This document shows positions 21,543 through 34,945 of a stretch of DNA of 37,161 nucleotides, in pieces. The position numbers and the translations under genes were made by a program. How positions within the stretch are numbered: position 1 is the first letter of the stretch; every line of letters begins with the position of its first letter. The stretch covers positions 1-37,161 of the forward strand of contig JARYMC010000002.1 of the NCBI GenBank assembly GCA_029907305.1, given 5' to 3'. The DNA is from Candidatus Thermoplasmatota archaeon (lineage in GTDB: Archaea > Thermoplasmatota > E2 > DHVEG-1). Under the pieces are notes generated by a model. That model searched no databases. It worked only from the letters and a program-made list of their open reading frames with translations, and was not told the DNA's origin.

Positions 21543-22355
21543 ATGGGCTTCAAAGAAAAACTATTGAATATTGTTCATGAGAATGATAGCTTGGTCTGTG
21601 TTGGTCTTGACATTGATCAAGAAAAAATGCCAAAGTTTCTTTTTGATACAAGTAAGGATCCTTTTTTTGATTTCAACAAATCAATAATTGATGAGACCAA
21701 AGACCTTGTTTGTGCTTACAAACTAAATATGGCTTTCTACGAAATCCTAGGTTTAGAGGGTTTTAAACTTCTTGAGAAAACAGTGAAACATATACCTAGA
21801 AACGTTGTTGTTATACTTGATGGAAAAAGAAATGATATAGGTAACACAGCTAAGAAATATGCTAAGTCTCTTTTTGAAACCTATAAAGCAGATGCTGTAA
21901 CTGTAAACCCATATCTTGGGATAGATGGTGTTAAACCATTTTTAGAATACAAAGATAAATGCAGTTTTATTTTGTGCAGAACATCCAATCCATCTGCTGT
22001 TGACTTCCAAGATCTTAAAACCCAGGGTAAACCTTTGTATCAGATGGTTGCTGAGAAGATAAAAGAATGGAATAAAATTGGATATTGCGGCGCGGTTGTT
22101 GGTGCAACGTATCAAGATGAACTAAAGATTATACGTGGTATACTCGGTGATAATATACCTCTGCTTATACCAGGTATAGGTAAACAAGGTGGGGATGTAG
22201 AGAAAACAGTCAGATACGGTGCAAACAGAGACGGCGAGATGGCAGTTATCAACTCGTCTAGGGAAATAATTTTTGCTGGGGATAAAGAAGATTTTGCAGA
22301 AAAATCAAGGGATAGAGCATCTTCTCTTAGAAAGGAAATCAACAAATATCGTTAA
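21543..22355 (+). CDS. pyrF: Orotidine 5'-phosphate decarboxylase, subfamily 2
   Basis: This 270-residue TIM-barrel enzyme decarboxylates OMP to UMP in pyrimidine synthesis. Active-site landmarks are GLDID (21-25), AYKLNMAFYE (58-67) with the phosphate-side lysine, and LDGKRNDIGNT (92-102) supplying the Asp-x-Lys-x-x-Asp catalytic array (Asp93, Lys95, Asp98), followed by VNPYLG and a C-terminal PGIGKQGGD phosphate loop. The length and the DIGNT pattern fit the long subfamily 2 (TIGR02127-like), typical of many bacteria and some archaea, rather than the ~220-residue type of most archaea. A GTGAGGT site precedes ATG. No other pyrimidine gene is nearby. Confidence 0.92.
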   Translation: MGFKEKLLNIVHENDSLVCVGLDIDQEKMPKFLFDTSKDPFFDFNKSIIDETKDLVCAYKLNMAFYEILGLEGFKLLEKTVKHIPRNVVVILDGKRNDIGNTAKKYAKSLFETYKADAVTVNPYLGIDGVKPFLEYKDKCSFILCRTSNPSAVDFQDLKTQGKPLYQMVAEKIKEWNKIGYCGAVVGATYQDELKIIRGILGDNIPLLIPGIGKQGGDVEKTVRYGANRDGEMAVINSSREIIFAGDKEDFAEKSRDRASSLRKEINKYR

Positions 22356-22760: not shown

Positions 22761-25700
22761 ATGGGGGAATACCACTTCAAAGGAGGAGCATTAAAAAATA
22801 ACTCTCTCAATATTCATCATATATCAAAAAGGATTATTTGTATCCTAGTGGTATTAATTTTATTTTCAACAATTTTTTCATCAACGGTATTCGCAGAGAA
22901 ACCGGTGGATAAAATAAAAGAAAAAGTCACAGAGATAATAGGTAAAATCTCTGATAAAGCTAAGGAGTTGGTTCAAGAAATTACTGATAGAGGATCAGAT
23001 AACCCTCTCATGGGTAGTGTTTTTAGAGAAATGTCTCTGTTTAAACGTGAGTCTATTCTGTCTCTTGTTACTAACTATAATGGTACCGTTAAGTCTACGC
23101 GTTTTAGATTGTTTTTACCTACTGTGTTGGATGTGGATGGTGATGGTAAGAAGGATGTTCGCGTCTGGGTTTTCCGTAGGCCTGGTGTTGATTTTAGTCC
23201 GCCTGCTGTTTGTCTTAAGACGACTTTAGTGGTTCGTCGTCTTAATGATGATATTAAGAGTGGTCCTTTTGAGATATATCTGGAGTATAAACCGAAGATT
23301 ATATCAAAAATTGTTGGTGGTGCACTCGATCGTATTAGAATAGGTTATCAGACCCCTATGGGTGCAGAGATACCTGATTTTTTAAAGTTGACACACACAT
23401 ACGTTCCACGTTTAATATACCCGCGGCTGAAACCTATGCATAAGCTGATGATGGACCCTGGCTCAGCAGCTGGCAAAACAGATTTGAATCTATTATTCTC
23501 AGTTGCTGACATGAATGGTGATAATGTATCATCACAGCAAATGTTTAACATAAACTATAACCCTGTTGTTAAAACACAGGTATCTTTCGGCAGACTGAAA
23601 AAACATTTAGGTTTCGATCTGGAAATAAGCTCTTCAAATGAATCAAAAACTACGATTTTTTATACAAAAGAAGAAACAGGTAACAACATGGATATTGGTC
23701 TAGTAATAGACAAATTATCAAGTTTTAATTTCCTGTTAGATTTAATCAAATCTTCAAAAGGTAATAGCACAATTGAGTATGAACGCCTTAGTTCAAACAA
23801 GGTTAATGTTACTCTTTTCAAGAAAAATTCTGATAACTTCTATTTCTACATAAAACCCCTGCCAAAACAAATAGTCGCTACTTTCCTCCCAGAATCAGTT
23901 GGTTGGATGAACATTGATACCTTTGGTGAATATGTAAATGAAATAGGTTTTTGCAATGATCTAGTAGATCCATCTTGGAGGCTTTATTTCTCGGATTTAC
24001 CCTCTGTAGCAAAACTCAATTGGACTCTATCAAAAAAGAAGAGTTTAGAGGCTGGTAGCCTAAAAATGTATGGTGATACAAACTGCTCCGTGCACCTAAA
24101 CGCGTCGTTGAACGACATCTTGAGCACAAATTCAAATGCAGATGTAAAAATAGATGTTTTCGCTCAAAACAATATTGACATGTCGTTTTCATGGGATTTC
24201 GAAAAACAGTATCTTCAACTAGATCAAAGTAAAACAGATCTGAACCTGTCTTTATCAATACATGATGATAAAGGTAACACATTTGATGGCTCTTGTACCA
24301 TAAAAAACCTAAGCAGTGGTCCTTTCACAGTTTTTTATGACGAGTTATCAGACGAAAAAGTGAATTTATCCTTCTCTGGCAAATCGTTTGATGTCTATAA
24401 TTTACATGCAGAAACAAACCTGGAAAAGTTTGGTAACTTCACAGTGATCACAGGCCATATCCTAAAGAATAAAAATGGGAACCTAAACATTAGCATGTAT
24501 GCAACAAAAAACGGTTCATATATAGACTGCAACTGCACCTTTATAGTAACTGGTGGAATAGAAATATATGATTTACTTTTAGGTTACAATGGCGTCTGGC
24601 ACAATAGATCCTATATAATCGTGGATGACAACGACATTTTATACTTCCAATTCGGTGGAACATTCGACGTTGTTTTCAACATCGCCGACGACCTATCATG
24701 GGGATATATAGCCTTACGTGGCAGCGTCTACATTGATGTGGATTTCAAATTCATTTCAAACAAAACATCAGGAATCATAAAAGGAAAGATACATTTCAAC
24801 TCAAACGGTGGGCTGTTTAATATCTCATGGGTCACTGTCTCTGGCGAGAGGCAATTTACCTTTGATGGCAGCGCCATAGTTAGCCTATCAAATTTCATTT
24901 TTAAACTCGGCGATATCATAAATATCTCCATTCCAGTGCTCTCAGGTAAACTCAAGCTGGAGAATGTGTCAAAAGTAAACGGTGCATTTAAGCTTGAATT
25001 CCAAGGCAAAGGCTCACTCTATCTGATCACATCTTTTAAATCCTCAAATAACTCCAACCAGTCAGATGTACAACTCAATGTTTCAATTGATGCATATATC
25101 AAAACCGGTGAAACACCTGGTGTCATCGCTGTTTCATGGGATAACTACAATGTTACAAGCTTTGAAACTGATTTAAGAAACAGTGGAGTTCTCACCATAA
25201 ATGATTTAGACATCAAAAAAACAGTTGATGGCAACAAAACAGTAAAAATTGAAAACCTGAGTGCTAAACTATCTGGTTACCTTCACATAGATATTACCCA
25301 CACAAATACTGCTAGAAACACGTTTGTCGCTGTCTCAGAGGATGCAGATATAGATATCCACATAGGCTGTTTTAACACCAGCTACCTGTTAAACAACAGT
25401 ATTCAATGGTTGGATTTAGGCTCAATAAACATTTCCATCAACTCAACTGGTAGAACAGTTTTTTCTCTCCTAAATTTCACAAACGAAAGCTTCATCGAAC
25501 CAATATATGCCCAGGAGCTTAACTGGTATAATCTAACAATGAGTATAAACGCAAATAATAGCATATTCATCCTAAGGGATTTTTACATAGAACACTTTGC
25601 AAATTATAGTACAATCATCCTAAGAAACTTCAGCGTTGCAGATGGATACTCTAAGATAAAATTCTCAGCCGCCCTTAATCTATCATTCATGGTTGCACGT

Positions 25701-27410
25701 TTCGCCAACCTATTTTTCAACAACAGCCAGAACATCAATATTTTACTTGACAATTTTTCTTTAAACGTGGTTCTCGCTGATTTCCCACCCGTGCCTACCA
25801 CTATTTACTCAGGGAAACTTACTGGTGGCATACTCGACATTAGAAGCAGATTTTTTGGCATCGCAGCTGTAGAAATAACTAACGGTAGCGCCATAGACCA
25901 TCTAGGCATAGACATTATACCATTCCAGGGAACACCAAGTTTTCATTTCAACACCTATATCTGCGCGCCTGTTGATTATCTCTTTTTTGAGGTAAACGAC
26001 ATGGAAATTGAAAAAGAGTACATACTAATAGATACACACAACACTAGCACAAAAATGAACCTGACATTTTTAGTCCCCACACAACAAACCCTTCCAGGTT
26101 CTAAAATCTTTAACACCGCAGGGTTCCGCATCGATAACGTAACAATACAAGCTGACAAATTCATTGTAAACACACCAAACCTTTTCTCATATCCAGAAAA
26201 CGCTAGCATCTATGATTTCAGCGTATCAGGGTATATACACCTAGAGGGCGGGGGCAACATATGGTTTTTAGTAAACGGTGTATGGCACCCGCTATACCAA
26301 TACAATGGTTCCTTAACTGTTACACCAGGTCATCTAAAACTTGAGATAGATGGTGATATGTCAGTCGACCGAATAATACCCTTATCAGATAACAGTATAC
26401 TTACAGTCAAAGGCAATTTCACCGCAGACAACTGCATATTTGAAATCTGGTGGGAGAGAACCATTGACAATAGCATACCAGATATGATAAAAATCGAATT
26501 CAACGGAGATATAAACATAAAAGGATTTTTGTTCAAAGTTGAATACAACGATAAAAATGGTTTAGACAAAATCGCTGTTTCATGGCAGGAACTCGATGTT
26601 CTAGGACCAGCATATTTTAACATTAGCTCAAAAAACGAGCCATCATTCAACATAAACTGCTCAGCCAAGTCATTTGATTTGACAAACTTTGAGTTTACCA
26701 ACATCAATAAAACAATGCAGCTTGGCTCAACTAGTTTTTCAGGTGAGTTCTCGATTTCAACTTTACCTGAGCATACCAACTCTTTCTACTATATAGGTTT
26801 CTGTGTTGAAAAAATAAATGGGGTTTTTGAGATAGAAAATATAACTATGCCATCTTATTCATTAGATAAAATTGATAGGTTCTATTTCGATGGGTATGGT
26901 GATATAAGTTTTGAGAACTGGGTGGATTTAAACGACTATGATACACATGTTGTTGTGGAAATACAAAACAGCCTAAATATTAATTGTTTTGAGGTAGACT
27001 TTGATAACGGTGCATCGTTCAAGATAGAGCATTTAAGCTCAGGAGCTGGGTACATAACCTCTGGTTACATCCATGCAGCTTGGAACATTTATCTTGATGC
27101 AGATGGCATGGTTTTCCTTGACAGCGGACCTGAAAACAATCCTATTTCTTTTCATAACCTAAGATTCTCTTATAATAGACCTCGTCAGCTTGGTTGGGGT
27201 ATACGCCTAAGATTCCCAAATCATTATTTTGATGCTGACCTGTGGTGCATACAATGGGATCCTCTATGGTACAACCCAAACACAGGTGTGTTTATAATCA
27301 GACCACTTTCCATACATATAGATGGCGTGATTCAAATTGGTAGAGTTGACCTTGAGATATATGATGGTAACTATTGGTATTATCTTGGTAGATGGCCGAT
27401 TCTACCATAA
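22761..27410 (+). CDS. Giant secreted beta-rich surface protein, 1549 aa
   Basis: The N-terminus is basic, then a hydrophobic segment (about 25-42) ends STVFA before Glu46, a plausible signal-peptide cleavage after Ala45. Residues 39-172 are encoded by the DNA cassette shared with the second giant gene and include a lysine-rich helical stretch and a DVDGDGKKDV loop (124-133) of calcium-binding type. Similarity to the paralogue continues more weakly to about 250. The rest is a long array of short beta strands with degenerate units such as GxGSLxL, GSVYIDV and (L)LGYNGVWH. About fifty N-x-S/T sequons by eye indicate a heavily glycosylated cell-surface protein. No C-terminal membrane anchor or PGF-CTERM is visible; it ends WYYLGRWPILP. 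No catalytic motif is seen and the function is unknown. Confidence 0.8.
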   Translation: MGEYHFKGGALKNNSLNIHHISKRIICILVVLILFSTIFSSTVFAEKPVDKIKEKVTEIIGKISDKAKELVQEITDRGSDNPLMGSVFREMSLFKRESILSLVTNYNGTVKSTRFRLFLPTVLDVDGDGKKDVRVWVFRRPGVDFSPPAVCLKTTLVVRRLNDDIKSGPFEIYLEYKPKIISKIVGGALDRIRIGYQTPMGAEIPDFLKLTHTYVPRLIYPRLKPMHKLMMDPGSAAGKTDLNLLFSVADMNGDNVSSQQMFNINYNPVVKTQVSFGRLKKHLGFDLEISSSNESKTTIFYTKEETGNNMDIGLVIDKLSSFNFLLDLIKSSKGNSTIEYERLSSNKVNVTLFKKNSDNFYFYIKPLPKQIVATFLPESVGWMNIDTFGEYVNEIGFCNDLVDPSWRLYFSDLPSVAKLNWTLSKKKSLEAGSLKMYGDTNCSVHLNASLNDILSTNSNADVKIDVFAQNNIDMSFSWDFEKQYLQLDQSKTDLNLSLSIHDDKGNTFDGSCTIKNLSSGPFTVFYDELSDEKVNLSFSGKSFDVYNLHAETNLEKFGNFTVITGHILKNKNGNLNISMYATKNGSYIDCNCTFIVTGGIEIYDLLLGYNGVWHNRSYIIVDDNDILYFQFGGTFDVVFNIADDLSWGYIALRGSVYIDVDFKFISNKTSGIIKGKIHFNSNGGLFNISWVTVSGERQFTFDGSAIVSLSNFIFKLGDIINISIPVLSGKLKLENVSKVNGAFKLEFQGKGSLYLITSFKSSNNSNQSDVQLNVSIDAYIKTGETPGVIAVSWDNYNVTSFETDLRNSGVLTINDLDIKKTVDGNKTVKIENLSAKLSGYLHIDITHTNTARNTFVAVSEDADIDIHIGCFNTSYLLNNSIQWLDLGSINISINSTGRTVFSLLNFTNESFIEPIYAQELNWYNLTMSINANNSIFILRDFYIEHFANYSTIILRNFSVADGYSKIKFSAALNLSFMVARFANLFFNNSQNINILLDNFSLNVVLADFPPVPTTIYSGKLTGGILDIRSRFFGIAAVEITNGSAIDHLGIDIIPFQGTPSFHFNTYICAPVDYLFFEVNDMEIEKEYILIDTHNTSTKMNLTFLVPTQQTLPGSKIFNTAGFRIDNVTIQADKFIVNTPNLFSYPENASIYDFSVSGYIHLEGGGNIWFLVNGVWHPLYQYNGSLTVTPGHLKLEIDGDMSVDRIIPLSDNSILTVKGNFTADNCIFEIWWERTIDNSIPDMIKIEFNGDINIKGFLFKVEYNDKNGLDKIAVSWQELDVLGPAYFNISSKNEPSFNINCSAKSFDLTNFEFTNINKTMQLGSTSFSGEFSISTLPEHTNSFYYIGFCVEKINGVFEIENITMPSYSLDKIDRFYFDGYGDISFENWVDLNDYDTHVVVEIQNSLNINCFEVDFDNGASFKIEHLSSGAGYITSGYIHAAWNIYLDADGMVFLDSGPENNPISFHNLRFSYNRPRQLGWGIRLRFPNHYFDADLWCIQWDPLWYNPNTGVFIIRPLSIHIDGVIQIGRVDLEIYDGNYWYYLGRWPILP
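22873..23278 (+). repeat. 406-bp direct repeat, copy 1
   Basis: By direct reading this segment is base-for-base identical to 28170-28575. It starts in the codons at the end of the signal peptide and stops abruptly within a conserved glutamate-isoleucine-tyrosine run, after which the two genes differ at many positions. It encodes residues 39-172 of this protein. Its third codon positions favour T and G (GTT, GAT, GGT, AAG), unlike the A- and C-ending codons of most of the rest of this gene. Confidence 0.9.
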
Positions 27411-27436
27411 AAAAAATTTGGGAGAAGATGATAAAT

Positions 27437-27967
27437 ATGAAAATAAATAAGATGAAAAAAACAGTTGCTCTTATCATGATATTAGGATTTTTTGTGGCTA
27501 CAATAGCTTCAGCTAATGCTGGTGTATATGGTAACAGGCCGCCTAATAATCCACAGACGCCAGAGGGGCCAACAGGTGGTGGCATGATATTTAACCGTGT
27601 TGTTGCTGGAAACAGCTACACCTATACTACAATTACAAATGATCCTGATGGTGATAGTGTATATTATAAATGGGATTGGGGTGATGGAACAAATAGTGAT
27701 TGGGATGGACCATGGAGTTCTGGTGTGGGTGTTGAGGGGAGCCATACCTGGGCTGAGGCAGGTGTTTATCAAGTGAAGGTAAAAGCTAAAGACTCTCATA
27801 ATGCTTCTAGCGGGTGGTCTCAGCCACTTAATGTTACTGTTAGCAACAGACTATCCAGTGTTTATACAGGGTCAATGTCTATAGGAAGTAGTGGAATGTG
27901 TTCTAATTCAGTTTTGCTTAAAAAAACTGCTAAAATAGAGTTTTACACAGGTATTTTATTAATCTGA
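27437..27967 (+). CDS. Small secreted PKD-domain protein
   Basis: From ATG 27437 the product is 176 residues: a basic start, a hydrophobic signal peptide (TVALIMILGFFVATIASANA), then a proline-rich link (RPPNNPQTPEG) and one PKD domain containing DPDGDSVYYKWDWGDG, SHTWAEAGVYQVKVKAKD and LNVTVS. I chose this ATG because a GGGAGAAG site lies about 9 nt upstream; the open frame runs up to 27392 inside the preceding gene. PKD domains mediate binding at archaeal cell surfaces. After the domain only about 35 residues follow, ending FYTGILLI with no anchor, so the gene may be truncated or frameshifted from a longer multi-domain protein. It lies 26 nt after giant gene 1 and is probably co-transcribed. 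Confidence 0.7.
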   Translation: MKINKMKKTVALIMILGFFVATIASANAGVYGNRPPNNPQTPEGPTGGGMIFNRVVAGNSYTYTTITNDPDGDSVYYKWDWGDGTNSDWDGPWSSGVGVEGSHTWAEAGVYQVKVKAKDSHNASSGWSQPLNVTVSNRLSSVYTGSMSIGSSGMCSNSVLLKKTAKIEFYTGILLI

Positions 27968-27971
27968 TAAC

Positions 27972-27996
27972 TTTTATATAGTAAATTATATATAGT
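27972..27996 (+). promoter_or_regulatory. TATA promoter block of giant gene 2
   Basis: AT-rich block containing AAATTATATATA, nearly matching the block at 22677-22701. It sits immediately after the PKD gene's stop and 68 nt before ATG 28064. The similarity implies the two giant genes share promoter ancestry as well as coding ancestry. Confidence 0.45.
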
Positions 27997-28063
27997 AGGT
28001 AGGATAAGTATTAAATAGAAATAAATATATATTCCTCAATAAAAATATATGAAGGGATATTAA

Positions 28064-31000
28064 ATGGGGAAAAATACAACCATAAACATGAGATTAGGAT
28101 ATATAATAAACAAGCATACACCAGCTAAGTTCATCAGCATATTAATGGTATTTCTAATGGTTTCAACTGTTTTTTCATCAACGGTATTCGCAGAGAAACC
28201 GGTGGATAAAATAAAAGAAAAAGTCACAGAGATAATAGGTAAAATCTCTGATAAAGCTAAGGAGTTGGTTCAAGAAATTACTGATAGAGGATCAGATAAC
28301 CCTCTCATGGGTAGTGTTTTTAGAGAAATGTCTCTGTTTAAACGTGAGTCTATTCTGTCTCTTGTTACTAACTATAATGGTACCGTTAAGTCTACGCGTT
28401 TTAGATTGTTTTTACCTACTGTGTTGGATGTGGATGGTGATGGTAAGAAGGATGTTCGCGTCTGGGTTTTCCGTAGGCCTGGTGTTGATTTTAGTCCGCC
28501 TGCTGTTTGTCTTAAGACGACTTTAGTGGTTCGTCGTCTTAATGATGATATTAAGAGTGGTCCTTTTGAGATATACCTTGATTACACACCGAAGATAGTA
28601 TCAAAACTTTTAAAAACTTCACTACCTAACTTTAGAATAGGTTATCAGACTCCAGATGGTAAAGAAGTACCTAAAACTTGTATAGTTACTCATAAGAGTA
28701 TTCCCCATTTGATATATCCGAGGCTACAAACTACTCATAGGGTAGGTATAAACCCAGTTTCTATAGTTGGAAAGAGTGACAGTCAGTTGAATCTTTTGTT
28801 CTCTATTGTAAATGAAACAGATGAATCCAAATTAACAATACAGGTTAATCATAGTCCTGCTGTTAAAAATGAGATATCCTTTAGTTTAAAAAAGGAACAT
28901 TTTGTTAGACTAAGAGGAAGAACAATAGATATCATTAGGCAAAATGTTGTAGACTCAAATGTTACGCTTCTTATAAAAGATATAATAGGAAATGATGAAG
29001 GTTCTTTAAGCATAAAAAATATTCCTAAGCAAATTTCTTTATCTTGGCTTCTTGGTATAAGAAATGGATACATAGATATTAATACATATGGATATGGAAC
29101 AGGCAATGTTGAGGCCACAGTTAATAATGCTTTAAAAGTTGGTTTCATACCTGAAACAGGTTTAGATTTTCACCTTGGATGGAGAACCCCTGGTATCAGA
29201 AAAATAAAGAAAGGCGTAGATTCTGATATCACCTTTAATACCTACGGTTCTGCCGTTCTGTCAAATCTGTATATGTTTGTGCCTGACTCAATTAATTTAA
29301 CTGCATCCTTACTTTCATTAAAACTAGGAGTTAAAAGTGAAGTAGGCGGGTTTGTGTTAAAACCATTTGGTGCAGATAATTTACTAGTTAATGTAACAAA
29401 TGCTGAGGTTACACTTAAGGATTGTAACGTCGATTTTAAAATACCTGAGACGCCTGATAAACCCAAAGTTTCAATTGTTAATCCAAAAGATGGCGATGAA
29501 GTTGAAAAAACTATCATAATAAGTGGTATTACTGTTCCTGCTGATAAAAAAATTAAGATGGTTCAAATATGGATAGATGATGGCGAAAAGATTAATCTAT
29601 CAGTTGACGCAGATGGTAACTGGTCTTATGGTTGGAATACCCTTGGGTTAGTTCCTAATGGTGAACATACAATCAGTGCAATAAGTATTGATGAAGGTGG
29701 AAAAGTATCTGACGAGGACAAAGTTACTATTACAGTAAATAACGAAGGTGGAAACTGGTATCCGACCGTGGATATAAAATCTCCTTATAACCTTCAACTA
29801 GTATCTGGAGTTGTTTACGTTAATGGTACAGCTAGTGATAAGAACAATGACCCTCTAAAAGTATACTTGGATATAAAAAATATTTTAGACAAAAGCGTAA
29901 TCGGTGGTGAAATTGAGTTAGCTGTTGACAAATCAGGTCGTTGGTCATACAAATGGGATACAAGCAAATTAACAGCTGGCCTACACACCATAAGCGTAAA
30001 AAGCTATGATGGAAAAGACTATACAGTAAACCCAGTATCAATATATGTTTGGGTTAAAATTAAGAGTGCACTAGATTTCACTCTGGCAGATGCATCAATT
30101 AATGTCACTAATTTTGCTTTGAAATTGGATATAACTGGCAAGGATATATCTCAAGTGGAGGTATCTTCTCTCAAAGCATCTGGCAATGGATACTTAAGTA
30201 CAGGCGAAACTTTTTCCGTTGGTGGCTTAGGAGTTTTAGATGTTAAAGATGCATATATATCATTGATAAACAAAACAGGGGTAACCACAAAGCCTTTGGA
30301 TAATTTATCAGTGTATTTCGATGGCCAAGGTTCTTTAGAATTATCAAAAGAAGAAATATCTCTAGGATTCGATGCATCGATCTATTTACACGTGGATGAA
30401 GCCTTTGGTATAGAAAACTCAACACTCGGTTTAAAAGGGCGAGCATCTGCAAAAATAAAATTTGATAAATCTGGTTGTACAATTGGTGATGAAGATAATT
30501 TCGATGTAAACATCACAGACCTAGTCTTCAAAGTCGATAAAAAAATTGATATCAGTGCGAAAAGGATAAGTGCAAATGGAACAGGGGATATTTCAATAAC
30601 AGGCAAAAAAATAACCTTATCCAGTAGCTCAATTAAAAGCGATGTAGATGAATTATCTGTTTACACAGATCTTGGTGTTTTCTCAGTAAGTGGAAAATTA
30701 AATCAAAACAAATATGGGGAGATAACATTTGAATTCATAGATTTATTTAACTTTAAAATGTCATATAATGGTTATGCAGATATGGTTATAACAGATTTTA
30801 AGTTCAAGGTTAATTCCTCAAAAGGTAATGCCACTGTTAGCGCAAAAAGTGTAAATGTTGAACCAGAGGGTCATGCTGAGTTTTCCTATTATAAGGATGA
30901 ATTAGATATTATCTCTTGCATAGATGTGATTGGTATAACTCTTGATGATTTGTTACTTGGCTTCAATGACTCATTCTATGGTCCCTTTGATTTAAGGTGG

Positions 31001-34000
31001 GATGGTAGCGCTTGTTTCACACTAACATCTGATGTTTTGATAGAACATGGTTCTGATTGGATACGTATAACAATCGGTGGAAAAGGCAGAGCAAGTTTCA
31101 ATTTACATACTACTATAAAAATCAACGAATACAAGGGTTATCTAAACGCTGATATGAGTCTCACAAACGGTAATGAAAAATTTGTTGTCTATCTATATAA
31201 TCTAAAAAGCAACAACAAAGGTTTCAATATCTATGGTTCAGCGGTTCTAAACCTAGAGTTATTTGAACTATATCTTGAAAACAGTACAACAAATGAAACA
31301 CTAGTAAACATCTCCATTGTAAACCTAAAAGCTAGTTTTGATATGAACTCATCTGGTGGTAAGAACGGTGATGAAGGCAGAATTTTATTTAATTTAAAAG
31401 AGGCGGGGGTAGCTTTAGAAAATGGTCATATATTCATTAATATAGCTGGTCAATATTGTTTTTCGCTAGCTGGCTTAGTAAGTATCTCTACATCTGTTGG
31501 GACCTCAGGAGCTATAGAAGTCATCTGGAACGAATCTGGCCTGAAAATCTTTGAGGTAGATTTTGATTCGTATACTAATGTTAGTATCGAAAACCTGCGA
31601 TTTAGATATATAAAGTACATAAAAGGATCTTCAGCTGAGCCATCAGAGGTAAAAACAGATATCAAATTATCTGCAGAAAAAATACTAATTAACAAAAATA
31701 GTAAATTTGTTATAACATCAGATTATATAAATATAAAAATTAATCCATCTGACTACAACACATTACCTACCAAAGAAAATCCAGATACTAAAGAATTTAC
31801 AGGCGTTTTATTAGAGGATTTCTATCTGAATGCCACTTTATCAAATTATACTGGTGCTGAGATAGATATCGGCTCACTTAAAATAACAAGCAGCATAGAT
31901 ATCTATTATGATGGTAATATTTCGATTAAAGGATCCGGTCATATTACCGGTGATGATATTTTCATTTGCGCTGGCGTAAAATACGATGTCAACTTTTTGT
32001 TCATATCAGTTGATATAGATTCATTGGATGTTTATGCTCAAGGTACCGCAGAAGTCACTGTCAAAGACAAAAACATCAGCCTCTATGGTTACGGCGATCA
32101 CACAGACATTTCTCTTGTTAATGCAGATGTAAATCTTATCTTTTCTGAATTATACATGTTTTTGACATTGAAAGAACTCAACATTCAATATACAGGTAGT
32201 GCAGAAATTAACGTTAAACTTGATAATTCCGGTCTAGTTGCTAAGGCAACACTATTTGATGATAATGCATATATCACAATTAAGACACTATGGGCGTACA
32301 TTAGTTTCGTCGGTGCTGAAATACGACTAGATGACGTTTTAATCTATGGAGATACAACCATCACATTAGATCTTACAAGTGAAGTGTTTGTTACTATACA
32401 TACTGATGAGACTATAACGATCCGAGCTGTTTTAATTTCACTTTATTTTATTGATGGGCCCTTAAATATTAGATTATATGGTGTTAGTAATAATGCAGTT
32501 GCTGGTGGATCTTCGTTTTCAATTGGGGTAGACGCCTTATCTAATCTCCTAATTGGGATTAATGGTTCATGGCACATAAACGGATTATGTATTAATAAGA
32601 TAGGTCCCGTTAAAAACATAGATGTTGCTGGTGAAATATCCCCACTTATAATAGGATTCGAACCTAGTTTCACATTTATAAGATTTGAAGGCACTGTTAT
32701 AAGACCAACTAGTTTGTACTTAGAACTAACAACATTTGGTGGTATCAGTTTTGATTTAAACCCCGGAATTTTTTCAGTTGCTTTTGATCTGGGTGAGTCT
32801 TTTGGTATACTCGCGTATTCTGAATCATATTTAACAGTTAATTTGATTCATCCTTTGCTAACTTGTGTTCCAATTAAATTGAAGGGACTAGTTGAGATAT
32901 ATGGGTTCACTGTCTCAATTTCAGAAAATGAAGATGAGGTAGATGAAATACTCTCGATAGTATATTTAAAGCTAAATGGCGAACTTGAGATAGCAAACAG
33001 ATGGAACATTAATGGAAGTTGTACTGTATCCTCCTTATCAATTGAATATACAGGTAACTATTTCACTGATATGCTCTTAAGAAGTAATATCGACTGTTAT
33101 GGAACTTTATATATTACTCGTTGGAACCATTGGAGAATTGCAATAGATGGAGAATTACATTTGTCGCCTCGCTCATTCATCTTTGATGATAGTTCAAATG
33201 AAGTAATTATAGAATCTTCAGAGGCTCTTGTTACAATAAACCAAATAACACAACAAATTAACATTAACACGATAAACGGAGAAAATATCGAAATATATGC
33301 AAATGGACAAATTGTAATCAACGGAAATCAAGTTCCGGCAATGGGTGCTACTCAAAATCAAGAAGTACAACAACAAGCTCAACAACAGGTTCAACAGATT
33401 TTAGAAAATATACTACCTGGCATATTATGGATCTGGATATGGCGGCCATTCCAACAGGATTGGATGCGGGTATGGCCGATAAATCCACAAAACGATCCAC
33501 CTCTAATAAAAGGCGTAGTAACTCTACTTACTAGACATGACCTTGATAACGCATTAGACAATATTAAAATAATACCAGGCGACAAAGTTAATTTTACTGC
33601 ATGGTTACTACCAGGCCAGGAAAAAAACGAATCATCTGATCATTACACTTTTTCGTTTGACTTCGGGGAAGGAAATACTTCAGTTGTTAACATAAGTAAA
33701 TCAGTAAAACTAATAAGGGTACATCCTAGTCTTGAACCCAAATATTTAGTTCCAGGTACATATACTGCAACTGTTACTGTGACCGATGGTTCTCTTGAAA
33801 TTGCTTCTCCTACCACAATAATAAATGTTGTGGAAGAATATTTAGATGTAGAAGAAACCCTTAATGAATTCGACTACGAGAAAATAAGAAACCAAACAGT
33901 TGTACATGGATATTTCACTGTTAAAAACATCGCAAACGAATCATGTTCAAATTATATGCTCCATTGGAATATGAGCATACCGGAAATACCATTTGGCTCA

Positions 34001-34945
34001 AATTGGAACTTTGAACCCAAGGAAGGCATCTTGGGACCTAATAAAAGCCAGATAGTTAACTTCTCATTCACACTCACATCACAAGATACACCTGGGGACT
34101 ACGATACTCCTGGAATAATTTTCTATGATAGAAATAATACTGATGTAAAAGATGTTGTAAAAATTCATATTTATTACGGCTTAGTAGAGCTTTTCCCAGT
34201 ATATGATACAGTTTACTTTATTAAAAAAGACTCCAACACAACATTAGATGATGTATTTTGGGTAATTAGCAACCGCTTTGAAACATTAGACTGGGAAATC
34301 AAGAGTGTTTCAATTACAGAAGGTAATCAATCTGACTTCGAATATGGGTTCAAACCCTCAAGCGGAACTTTACCTCCAAACAATTCCTTCGCTGGTGTTG
34401 ACCTATGGATAAATGCTAACGAACAATTTACAGGGTGCACAATGAAAGTAAAAGTTCAGAGGAAAAACGATGTTTATGATTATGATAACGTCACAATTAT
34501 AATAAAAGCAGTAAAACCTGACAAATTACAAAATTATATCTCACCAGATAGTCACGATGAATCAGACTGGATTAGAGAGGATTATGCATACGATGAAATG
34601 CCAATTTTAACATGGGCTGTATACAAAGAACTAGGTGTGAATGGATGGTCTGATCCTCTAACTCTAAAAAAGAATGCACCGATAAATATCGACGGTTTTA
34701 AAATCCGTGCACGAAAAGAAACACATCTTGATCAGATGGAAATAAAATTCTATAACGGTGCTAACCAAGTTGGGTCTACATTAACTTACACCGATTGGCT
34801 AAATAGAGATTGGAAAGACGTTGAACTCAACAGTCCATTACTTGTCGATAAAGTAGTTATAAGATTCCATGAGGACGCCCCTCTAACAGGATTCTGGGTA
34901 CACCGAGCATTTGTATACGAGTTTTATTTCATACAAGAACCATAA
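28064..34945 (+). CDS. Giant secreted multi-domain surface protein, 2293 aa
   Basis: A signal peptide is predicted to end at Ala43 (STVFA). Residues 37-170 come from the DNA cassette shared with giant gene 1, including the DVDGDGKKDV calcium-type loop; weaker similarity runs to about 260. Two bacterial Ig-like domains follow (about 465-560 and 564-666; IVNPKDGDEV, GEHTISAISIDEGG, LHTISVKSYDG). Residues 670-1760 are a long degenerate beta-strand array with units such as KGRASFNL, GSAEINVKL and LLIGINGSWH. A glutamine-rich linker (1762-1780) leads to a PKD-like domain (1830-1925), an Ig/CARDB-like region (1927-2150) and a C-terminal beta domain (2151-2293) resembling a carbohydrate-binding jelly roll. 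Sequons are abundant. No membrane anchor is visible. An AAGGGA site precedes ATG. Function unknown; structural or adhesive role inferred. Confidence 0.8.
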   Translation: MGKNTTINMRLGYIINKHTPAKFISILMVFLMVSTVFSSTVFAEKPVDKIKEKVTEIIGKISDKAKELVQEITDRGSDNPLMGSVFREMSLFKRESILSLVTNYNGTVKSTRFRLFLPTVLDVDGDGKKDVRVWVFRRPGVDFSPPAVCLKTTLVVRRLNDDIKSGPFEIYLDYTPKIVSKLLKTSLPNFRIGYQTPDGKEVPKTCIVTHKSIPHLIYPRLQTTHRVGINPVSIVGKSDSQLNLLFSIVNETDESKLTIQVNHSPAVKNEISFSLKKEHFVRLRGRTIDIIRQNVVDSNVTLLIKDIIGNDEGSLSIKNIPKQISLSWLLGIRNGYIDINTYGYGTGNVEATVNNALKVGFIPETGLDFHLGWRTPGIRKIKKGVDSDITFNTYGSAVLSNLYMFVPDSINLTASLLSLKLGVKSEVGGFVLKPFGADNLLVNVTNAEVTLKDCNVDFKIPETPDKPKVSIVNPKDGDEVEKTIIISGITVPADKKIKMVQIWIDDGEKINLSVDADGNWSYGWNTLGLVPNGEHTISAISIDEGGKVSDEDKVTITVNNEGGNWYPTVDIKSPYNLQLVSGVVYVNGTASDKNNDPLKVYLDIKNILDKSVIGGEIELAVDKSGRWSYKWDTSKLTAGLHTISVKSYDGKDYTVNPVSIYVWVKIKSALDFTLADASINVTNFALKLDITGKDISQVEVSSLKASGNGYLSTGETFSVGGLGVLDVKDAYISLINKTGVTTKPLDNLSVYFDGQGSLELSKEEISLGFDASIYLHVDEAFGIENSTLGLKGRASAKIKFDKSGCTIGDEDNFDVNITDLVFKVDKKIDISAKRISANGTGDISITGKKITLSSSSIKSDVDELSVYTDLGVFSVSGKLNQNKYGEITFEFIDLFNFKMSYNGYADMVITDFKFKVNSSKGNATVSAKSVNVEPEGHAEFSYYKDELDIISCIDVIGITLDDLLLGFNDSFYGPFDLRWDGSACFTLTSDVLIEHGSDWIRITIGGKGRASFNLHTTIKINEYKGYLNADMSLTNGNEKFVVYLYNLKSNNKGFNIYGSAVLNLELFELYLENSTTNETLVNISIVNLKASFDMNSSGGKNGDEGRILFNLKEAGVALENGHIFINIAGQYCFSLAGLVSISTSVGTSGAIEVIWNESGLKIFEVDFDSYTNVSIENLRFRYIKYIKGSSAEPSEVKTDIKLSAEKILINKNSKFVITSDYINIKINPSDYNTLPTKENPDTKEFTGVLLEDFYLNATLSNYTGAEIDIGSLKITSSIDIYYDGNISIKGSGHITGDDIFICAGVKYDVNFLFISVDIDSLDVYAQGTAEVTVKDKNISLYGYGDHTDISLVNADVNLIFSELYMFLTLKELNIQYTGSAEINVKLDNSGLVAKATLFDDNAYITIKTLWAYISFVGAEIRLDDVLIYGDTTITLDLTSEVFVTIHTDETITIRAVLISLYFIDGPLNIRLYGVSNNAVAGGSSFSIGVDALSNLLIGINGSWHINGLCINKIGPVKNIDVAGEISPLIIGFEPSFTFIRFEGTVIRPTSLYLELTTFGGISFDLNPGIFSVAFDLGESFGILAYSESYLTVNLIHPLLTCVPIKLKGLVEIYGFTVSISENEDEVDEILSIVYLKLNGELEIANRWNINGSCTVSSLSIEYTGNYFTDMLLRSNIDCYGTLYITRWNHWRIAIDGELHLSPRSFIFDDSSNEVIIESSEALVTINQITQQININTINGENIEIYANGQIVINGNQVPAMGATQNQEVQQQAQQQVQQILENILPGILWIWIWRPFQQDWMRVWPINPQNDPPLIKGVVTLLTRHDLDNALDNIKIIPGDKVNFTAWLLPGQEKNESSDHYTFSFDFGEGNTSVVNISKSVKLIRVHPSLEPKYLVPGTYTATVTVTDGSLEIASPTTIINVVEEYLDVEETLNEFDYEKIRNQTVVHGYFTVKNIANESCSNYMLHWNMSIPEIPFGSNWNFEPKEGILGPNKSQIVNFSFTLTSQDTPGDYDTPGIIFYDRNNTDVKDVVKIHIYYGLVELFPVYDTVYFIKKDSNTTLDDVFWVISNRFETLDWEIKSVSITEGNQSDFEYGFKPSSGTLPPNNSFAGVDLWINANEQFTGCTMKVKVQRKNDVYDYDNVTIIIKAVKPDKLQNYISPDSHDESDWIREDYAYDEMPILTWAVYKELGVNGWSDPLTLKKNAPINIDGFKIRARKETHLDQMEIKFYNGANQVGSTLTYTDWLNRDWKDVELNSPLLVDKVVIRFHEDAPLTGFWVHRAFVYEFYFIQEP
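28170..28575 (+). repeat. 406-bp direct repeat, copy 2
   Basis: Identical by reading to 22873-23278, offset 5297 bp, same strand and same reading frame. It encodes residues 37-170 of giant protein 2. Flanking bases differ immediately on both sides (A versus G before, T versus C after). Recombination between copies would delete 5297 bp and fuse the start of giant gene 1 to the body of giant gene 2 in frame. Confidence 0.9.

Follow-up and report, generated by a model that had tools for sequence, protein, structure and literature searches.

For the mtrA-1 and mtrA-2 genes of Methanococcales and Methanomicrobiales, gene conversion between diverged paralogues was shown to have occurred repeatedly and to be limited to one domain (PMC4632066; the case is also contained in PMC6053082). 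In bacteria, two independent conversions between the diverged paralogues RF1 and RF2 were identified for domain 3 of these proteins (PMC4530459). Recurrent concerted evolution was reported for 26 prokaryotic genes, and such cases were called rare; all seven archaeal genes in this list are from methanogens (PMC6053082). Gene conversion is also known from the vlsE cassettes, where it serves antigenic variation (PMC9604149). This paper will focus on a pair of giant tandem genes from a Thermoplasmatota archaeon, in which one part of the N-terminal region has very probably been homogenised by the same kind of process.

The window, which is the whole stretch of DNA that was analysed, comprises 37,161 nucleotides. 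Two neighbouring genes on the same strand, designated A and B, are located downstream of pyrF. The features of the locus are the following:

21543..22355, forward strand: pyrF, coding for orotidine 5'-phosphate decarboxylase, the conserved neighbour upstream of A which anchors the synteny of A
22761..27410, forward strand: gene A, 1549 aa, with a signal-like N-terminal segment, the shared N-terminal domain and a long predicted all-beta body
22873..23278, forward strand: block copy 1, in A, starting where the signal segment ends and reaching residue 173 of A
23031..23630, forward strand: N-terminal domain of A, 200 aa, its first part covered by the putative conversion tract
27392..27967, forward strand: small open reading frame with a PKD domain, 191 aa, between A and B
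28064..34945, forward strand: gene B, 2293 aa, with an N-terminus of the same kind as that of A and a body different from that of A
28170..28575, forward strand: block copy 2, in B
28328..28921, forward strand: N-terminal domain of B, homologous to the domain of A

B is a tandem paralogue of A. In the body of B, Big_7 Ig-like and PKD-like domains were identified, and these domains together with the signal-like N-terminus predict an exported or surface role for A and B. The similarity between the two proteins ends at about residue 282, and not at about residue 250 as the initial annotation had placed it; beyond this point, no resemblance between the long bodies can be recognised any more. The open reading frame with the PKD domain overlaps the 3' end of A by 19 bp. 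An archaeal origin is suggested by the gene content of the genome, which includes a primase small subunit.

The initial annotation had described an identical block of 406 bp in both genes, which covers the signal-peptide end. The identity was confirmed: the two copies are identical at 406 of 406 positions, third codon positions included, and the match is maximal on both sides, stopping at either end. Each copy is in frame with its gene and close to the gene start; the two are in direct orientation, 5297 bp apart. Inside the block, none of the 402 in-frame nucleotides differ (dN = dS = 0). However, in the 5' flank 33 of 81 nucleotides differ (dS about 1.8), and in the 3' flank 128 of 321 (dS about 1.4). 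The identity ends sharply at both edges, but the flanks do not become unrelated there; they are clearly homologous and in register, with about 57-60% nucleotide identity. When the aligned sites of A and B were shuffled 3000 times, the longest identical run obtained was 69, compared to the 406 observed. Where A and B encode the same amino acid, the same triplet is used at 131 of 132 codons inside the block versus 26 of 58 outside (p=3e-19). A third copy is not present in the whole assembly (1.41 Mb, 141 contigs), which contains two copies only; likewise, no DNA match to the block was identified among 59 relatives, and no copies were found in viral contigs.

An orthologous pair, designated A' and B', was identified in G016, which represents another genus of the same family as the source genome. 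G016 keeps the order pyrF-A-B with full-length orthologues of both genes, A and A' being collinear over the whole length (36.7% over 1499 columns), as are B and B' (35.9% over 2384 columns). As both full-length orthologues are present, with gene order and the pyrF neighbour conserved, the tandem pair must have existed before the two genera separated. The small open reading frame with the PKD domain is missing between A' and B', where the gap is about 100 bp.

A' and B' also share a near-identical tract, of about 130 bp, with exact runs of 38 and 86 bp and 7 differences in 135 nucleotides. Its position within the domain corresponds to that of the block of A and B, and the 3' edges agree within a few codons; it is shorter and contains some mismatches. 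Inside the tracts, dS is 0 for A/B and 0.16 for A'/B', compared to 1.4-2.1 outside, and codons for the same amino acid in A' and B' are the same triplet at 39 of 42 positions inside the tract versus 33 of 59 outside (p=4e-5). Sliding identity in the tract reaches 100% for A/B and up to 98% for A'/B', while A/A' and B/B' show just 49-64%. Downstream of the tract, B/B' reaches up to 74% and exceeds A/B with about 57%. In the block region, positions at which the orthologues have the same residue show the same codon in only about 40% of cases (20-23 of 51-52).

The trees were found to conflict in the same way. In the tree of the block, A pairs with the identical B, and A'+B' is supported by 96/95. 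Just downstream of the block, B+B' is supported by 99/95, and A+A' is recovered with weaker support (73/69), the bodies of A and A' being clearly orthologous; the AU test on this downstream tree rejected A+B (p=0.029) and A'+B' (p=0.004). A pairing within the genome inside the tracts and a pairing of orthologues outside is the textbook sign of gene conversion, here seen twice. The features of concerted evolution are also present at the sequence level, with paralogues more similar than orthologues in a limited tract, homogenised synonymous sites, an orthology tree restored outside, and recurrence in two lineages. The tract in A'/B' is independent of the one in A/B, so that conversion is lineage-specific and recurrent. 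The recurrence refers to two cases, A'/B' of G016 being the sole other tandem pair found.

We are highly confident that the block results from ectopic gene conversion between the old tandem paralogues A and B, which is recent and recurs at this locus, the pair in G016 included. A and B are old tandem paralogues which have retained a homologous N-terminus up to about residue 282, while their bodies diverged. The N-terminus is the only part still recognisably common to A and B, which leaves no other place for recombination between them. By a non-crossover homologous recombination between the copies, a stretch of about 406 bp in one gene would recently have been replaced by the sequence of the other, and the same domain was converted separately in the orthologous pair of G016. 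Such a recombination may have proceeded by break repair with strand exchange of the RadA type. The unconverted 5' part was compared with A', B' and C, a third paralogue described below, and gave scores of 58, 63 and 44; there is at most a faint hint of a conversion from B to A. A selective benefit may be involved, for example if an identical export or anchoring module is kept for one common partner. In a stronger form, the domain would be a docking or export module which needs to be identical in both giant exported proteins, and conversion would be promoted there either by selection or by a local recombination hotspot whose 3' limit is almost fixed, instead of following passively from the tandem homology; this version is regarded as unlikely.

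Of the two readings offered by the initial annotation, gene conversion is thus strongly upheld by a dS of 0 inside and above 1.3 outside, by trees that disagree inside and outside the block, and by the independent tract which A' and B' carry. The other one, a mobile cassette inserted in frame in both genes, would account for the sharp edges and the in-frame position. However, with just two copies in the genome and none in the 59 relatives or in viral contigs, with homologous flanks in register, and with a domain that is vertically present in all orthologues without the identical sequence, this reading is scarcely credible. The composition of the block is also not foreign; its GC content of 0.386 and GC3 of 0.291 are normal for the genome, and a foreign origin was rejected on these values. 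An antigenic-variation cassette system was rejected as well, because further DNA copies were not found in the genome and both copies are part of open full-length genes. Purifying selection alone, which would have held the block identical since the duplication, is in agreement with the domain core being its best-conserved part, but the identity extends to the synonymous sites, while the codon agreement of the orthologues in this region is only about 40%, so that its probability is practically nil.

The quality of the assembly also has to be considered, since a mis-join or a repeat collapse might have put one sequence at both sites. The assembly is fragmented into 141 contigs, a perfect identity over 406 bp exceeds typical short-read k-mers, and bubble merging may mask a difference of a few percent. 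However, the collinearity of A and B with the orthologues in G016 throughout their length, together with the same order and the same pyrF neighbour, shows that the joins are correct, and the comparable tract in G016 contains several mismatches, whereas a collapse would have removed them. An artefact is therefore very unlikely. The identity of the block might be 100% or, say, 97-99%, as an assembler consensus could merge near-identical copies; the explanation is unchanged either way. If each genus had undergone its own recent, partial tandem duplication, instead of conversion between old paralogues, this would fit to the observation that the second near-identical pair is also a tandem pair. Against this, full-length one-to-one orthologues of A and B are present in both genera and B and B' group together downstream, which implies that both genes predate the split of the genera, and hardly any likelihood is left for such duplications.

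Ectopic conversion also agrees with the distribution of similarity among the other family members. Long shared DNA words within the domain were found for the tandem pairs only, with 254 bp for A/B and 86 bp for A'/B'. For 15 other within-genome pairs, including those with C on contig 86 and with one gene on contig 4, the longest exact shared word is at most 13 bp, and a tandem arrangement thus appears to be needed for conversion. The synteny of pyrF and A is kept across several genera, and several other genera contain a single A-like gene at the pyrF locus; B beside A was seen in G000 and G016 only, with several contigs of other genera ending next to the A-like gene.

The third paralogue, C (L031, 1197-5784; G000:C86), codes for 1094 aa and is 43-44% identical in the domain. 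It is closer to B than to A and has no long DNA word in common with either. Downstream of C, an overlapping open reading frame in another frame contains a PKD-like part. In L032 (3599-9067; G007:C3), a gene for 1823 aa is A-like in its first part and B-like in its later part, and is possibly a fusion of the A and B types. A short form of 546 aa is present at the pyrF locus in L091 (2472-4109; G031:C150), where it replaces the gene for 1500-2900 aa, showing that gene length varies greatly within the family.

The domain profile found matches in 46 of 80 class genomes; a sample of 390 genomes from across the phylum gave 45 matches, all of them within the class. A scan of GTDB r220 contigs for the family revealed one weak locus, L028 (JAMOAF010000240.1), in a MAG labelled Planctomycetota; for a domain otherwise restricted to the class, this represents either contamination or transfer. 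No relative of the domain was found among Pfam, NCBIfam and PDB sequences. The AlphaFold2 model of the domain is confident and all-beta (pLDDT 84, pTM 0.82), and it has no match at E<=0.001 to PDB and viral structures. A 696-aa model (pLDDT 74) shows a long all-beta protein, in which a long all-beta body follows the domain, and gave no significant structural match. A family which is present throughout the class without a relative in these databases merits structural work. For this giant exported family, N-terminal sequences would yield misleading trees.

The A/B pair is a case of a known process, domain-limited conversion, in an unstudied protein family. It provides a clean two-genus case between tandem genes outside the methanogens, in a group known here from assemblies alone. 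In antigenic variation, silent cassettes diversify one expressed gene. Like vlsE, A and B show conversion between related sequences of surface proteins, a role which is predicted for A and B; unlike vlsE, they are two intact genes which conversion has brought closer to each other, and silent copies were not found. With RF1 and RF2, the pair shares two independent conversions confined to one functionally common domain of diverged paralogues. However, RF1 and RF2 are core translation factors, and their events were inferred from phylogeny and not from identical DNA. In comparison to mtrA, which is a methanogenesis gene with recurrence in many species, A and B are giant genes with recurrence in two genera. 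Like mtrA-1 and mtrA-2, they are neighbouring archaeal paralogues from an old duplication; one common domain was homogenised more than once, in separate lineages, and another part remained different.
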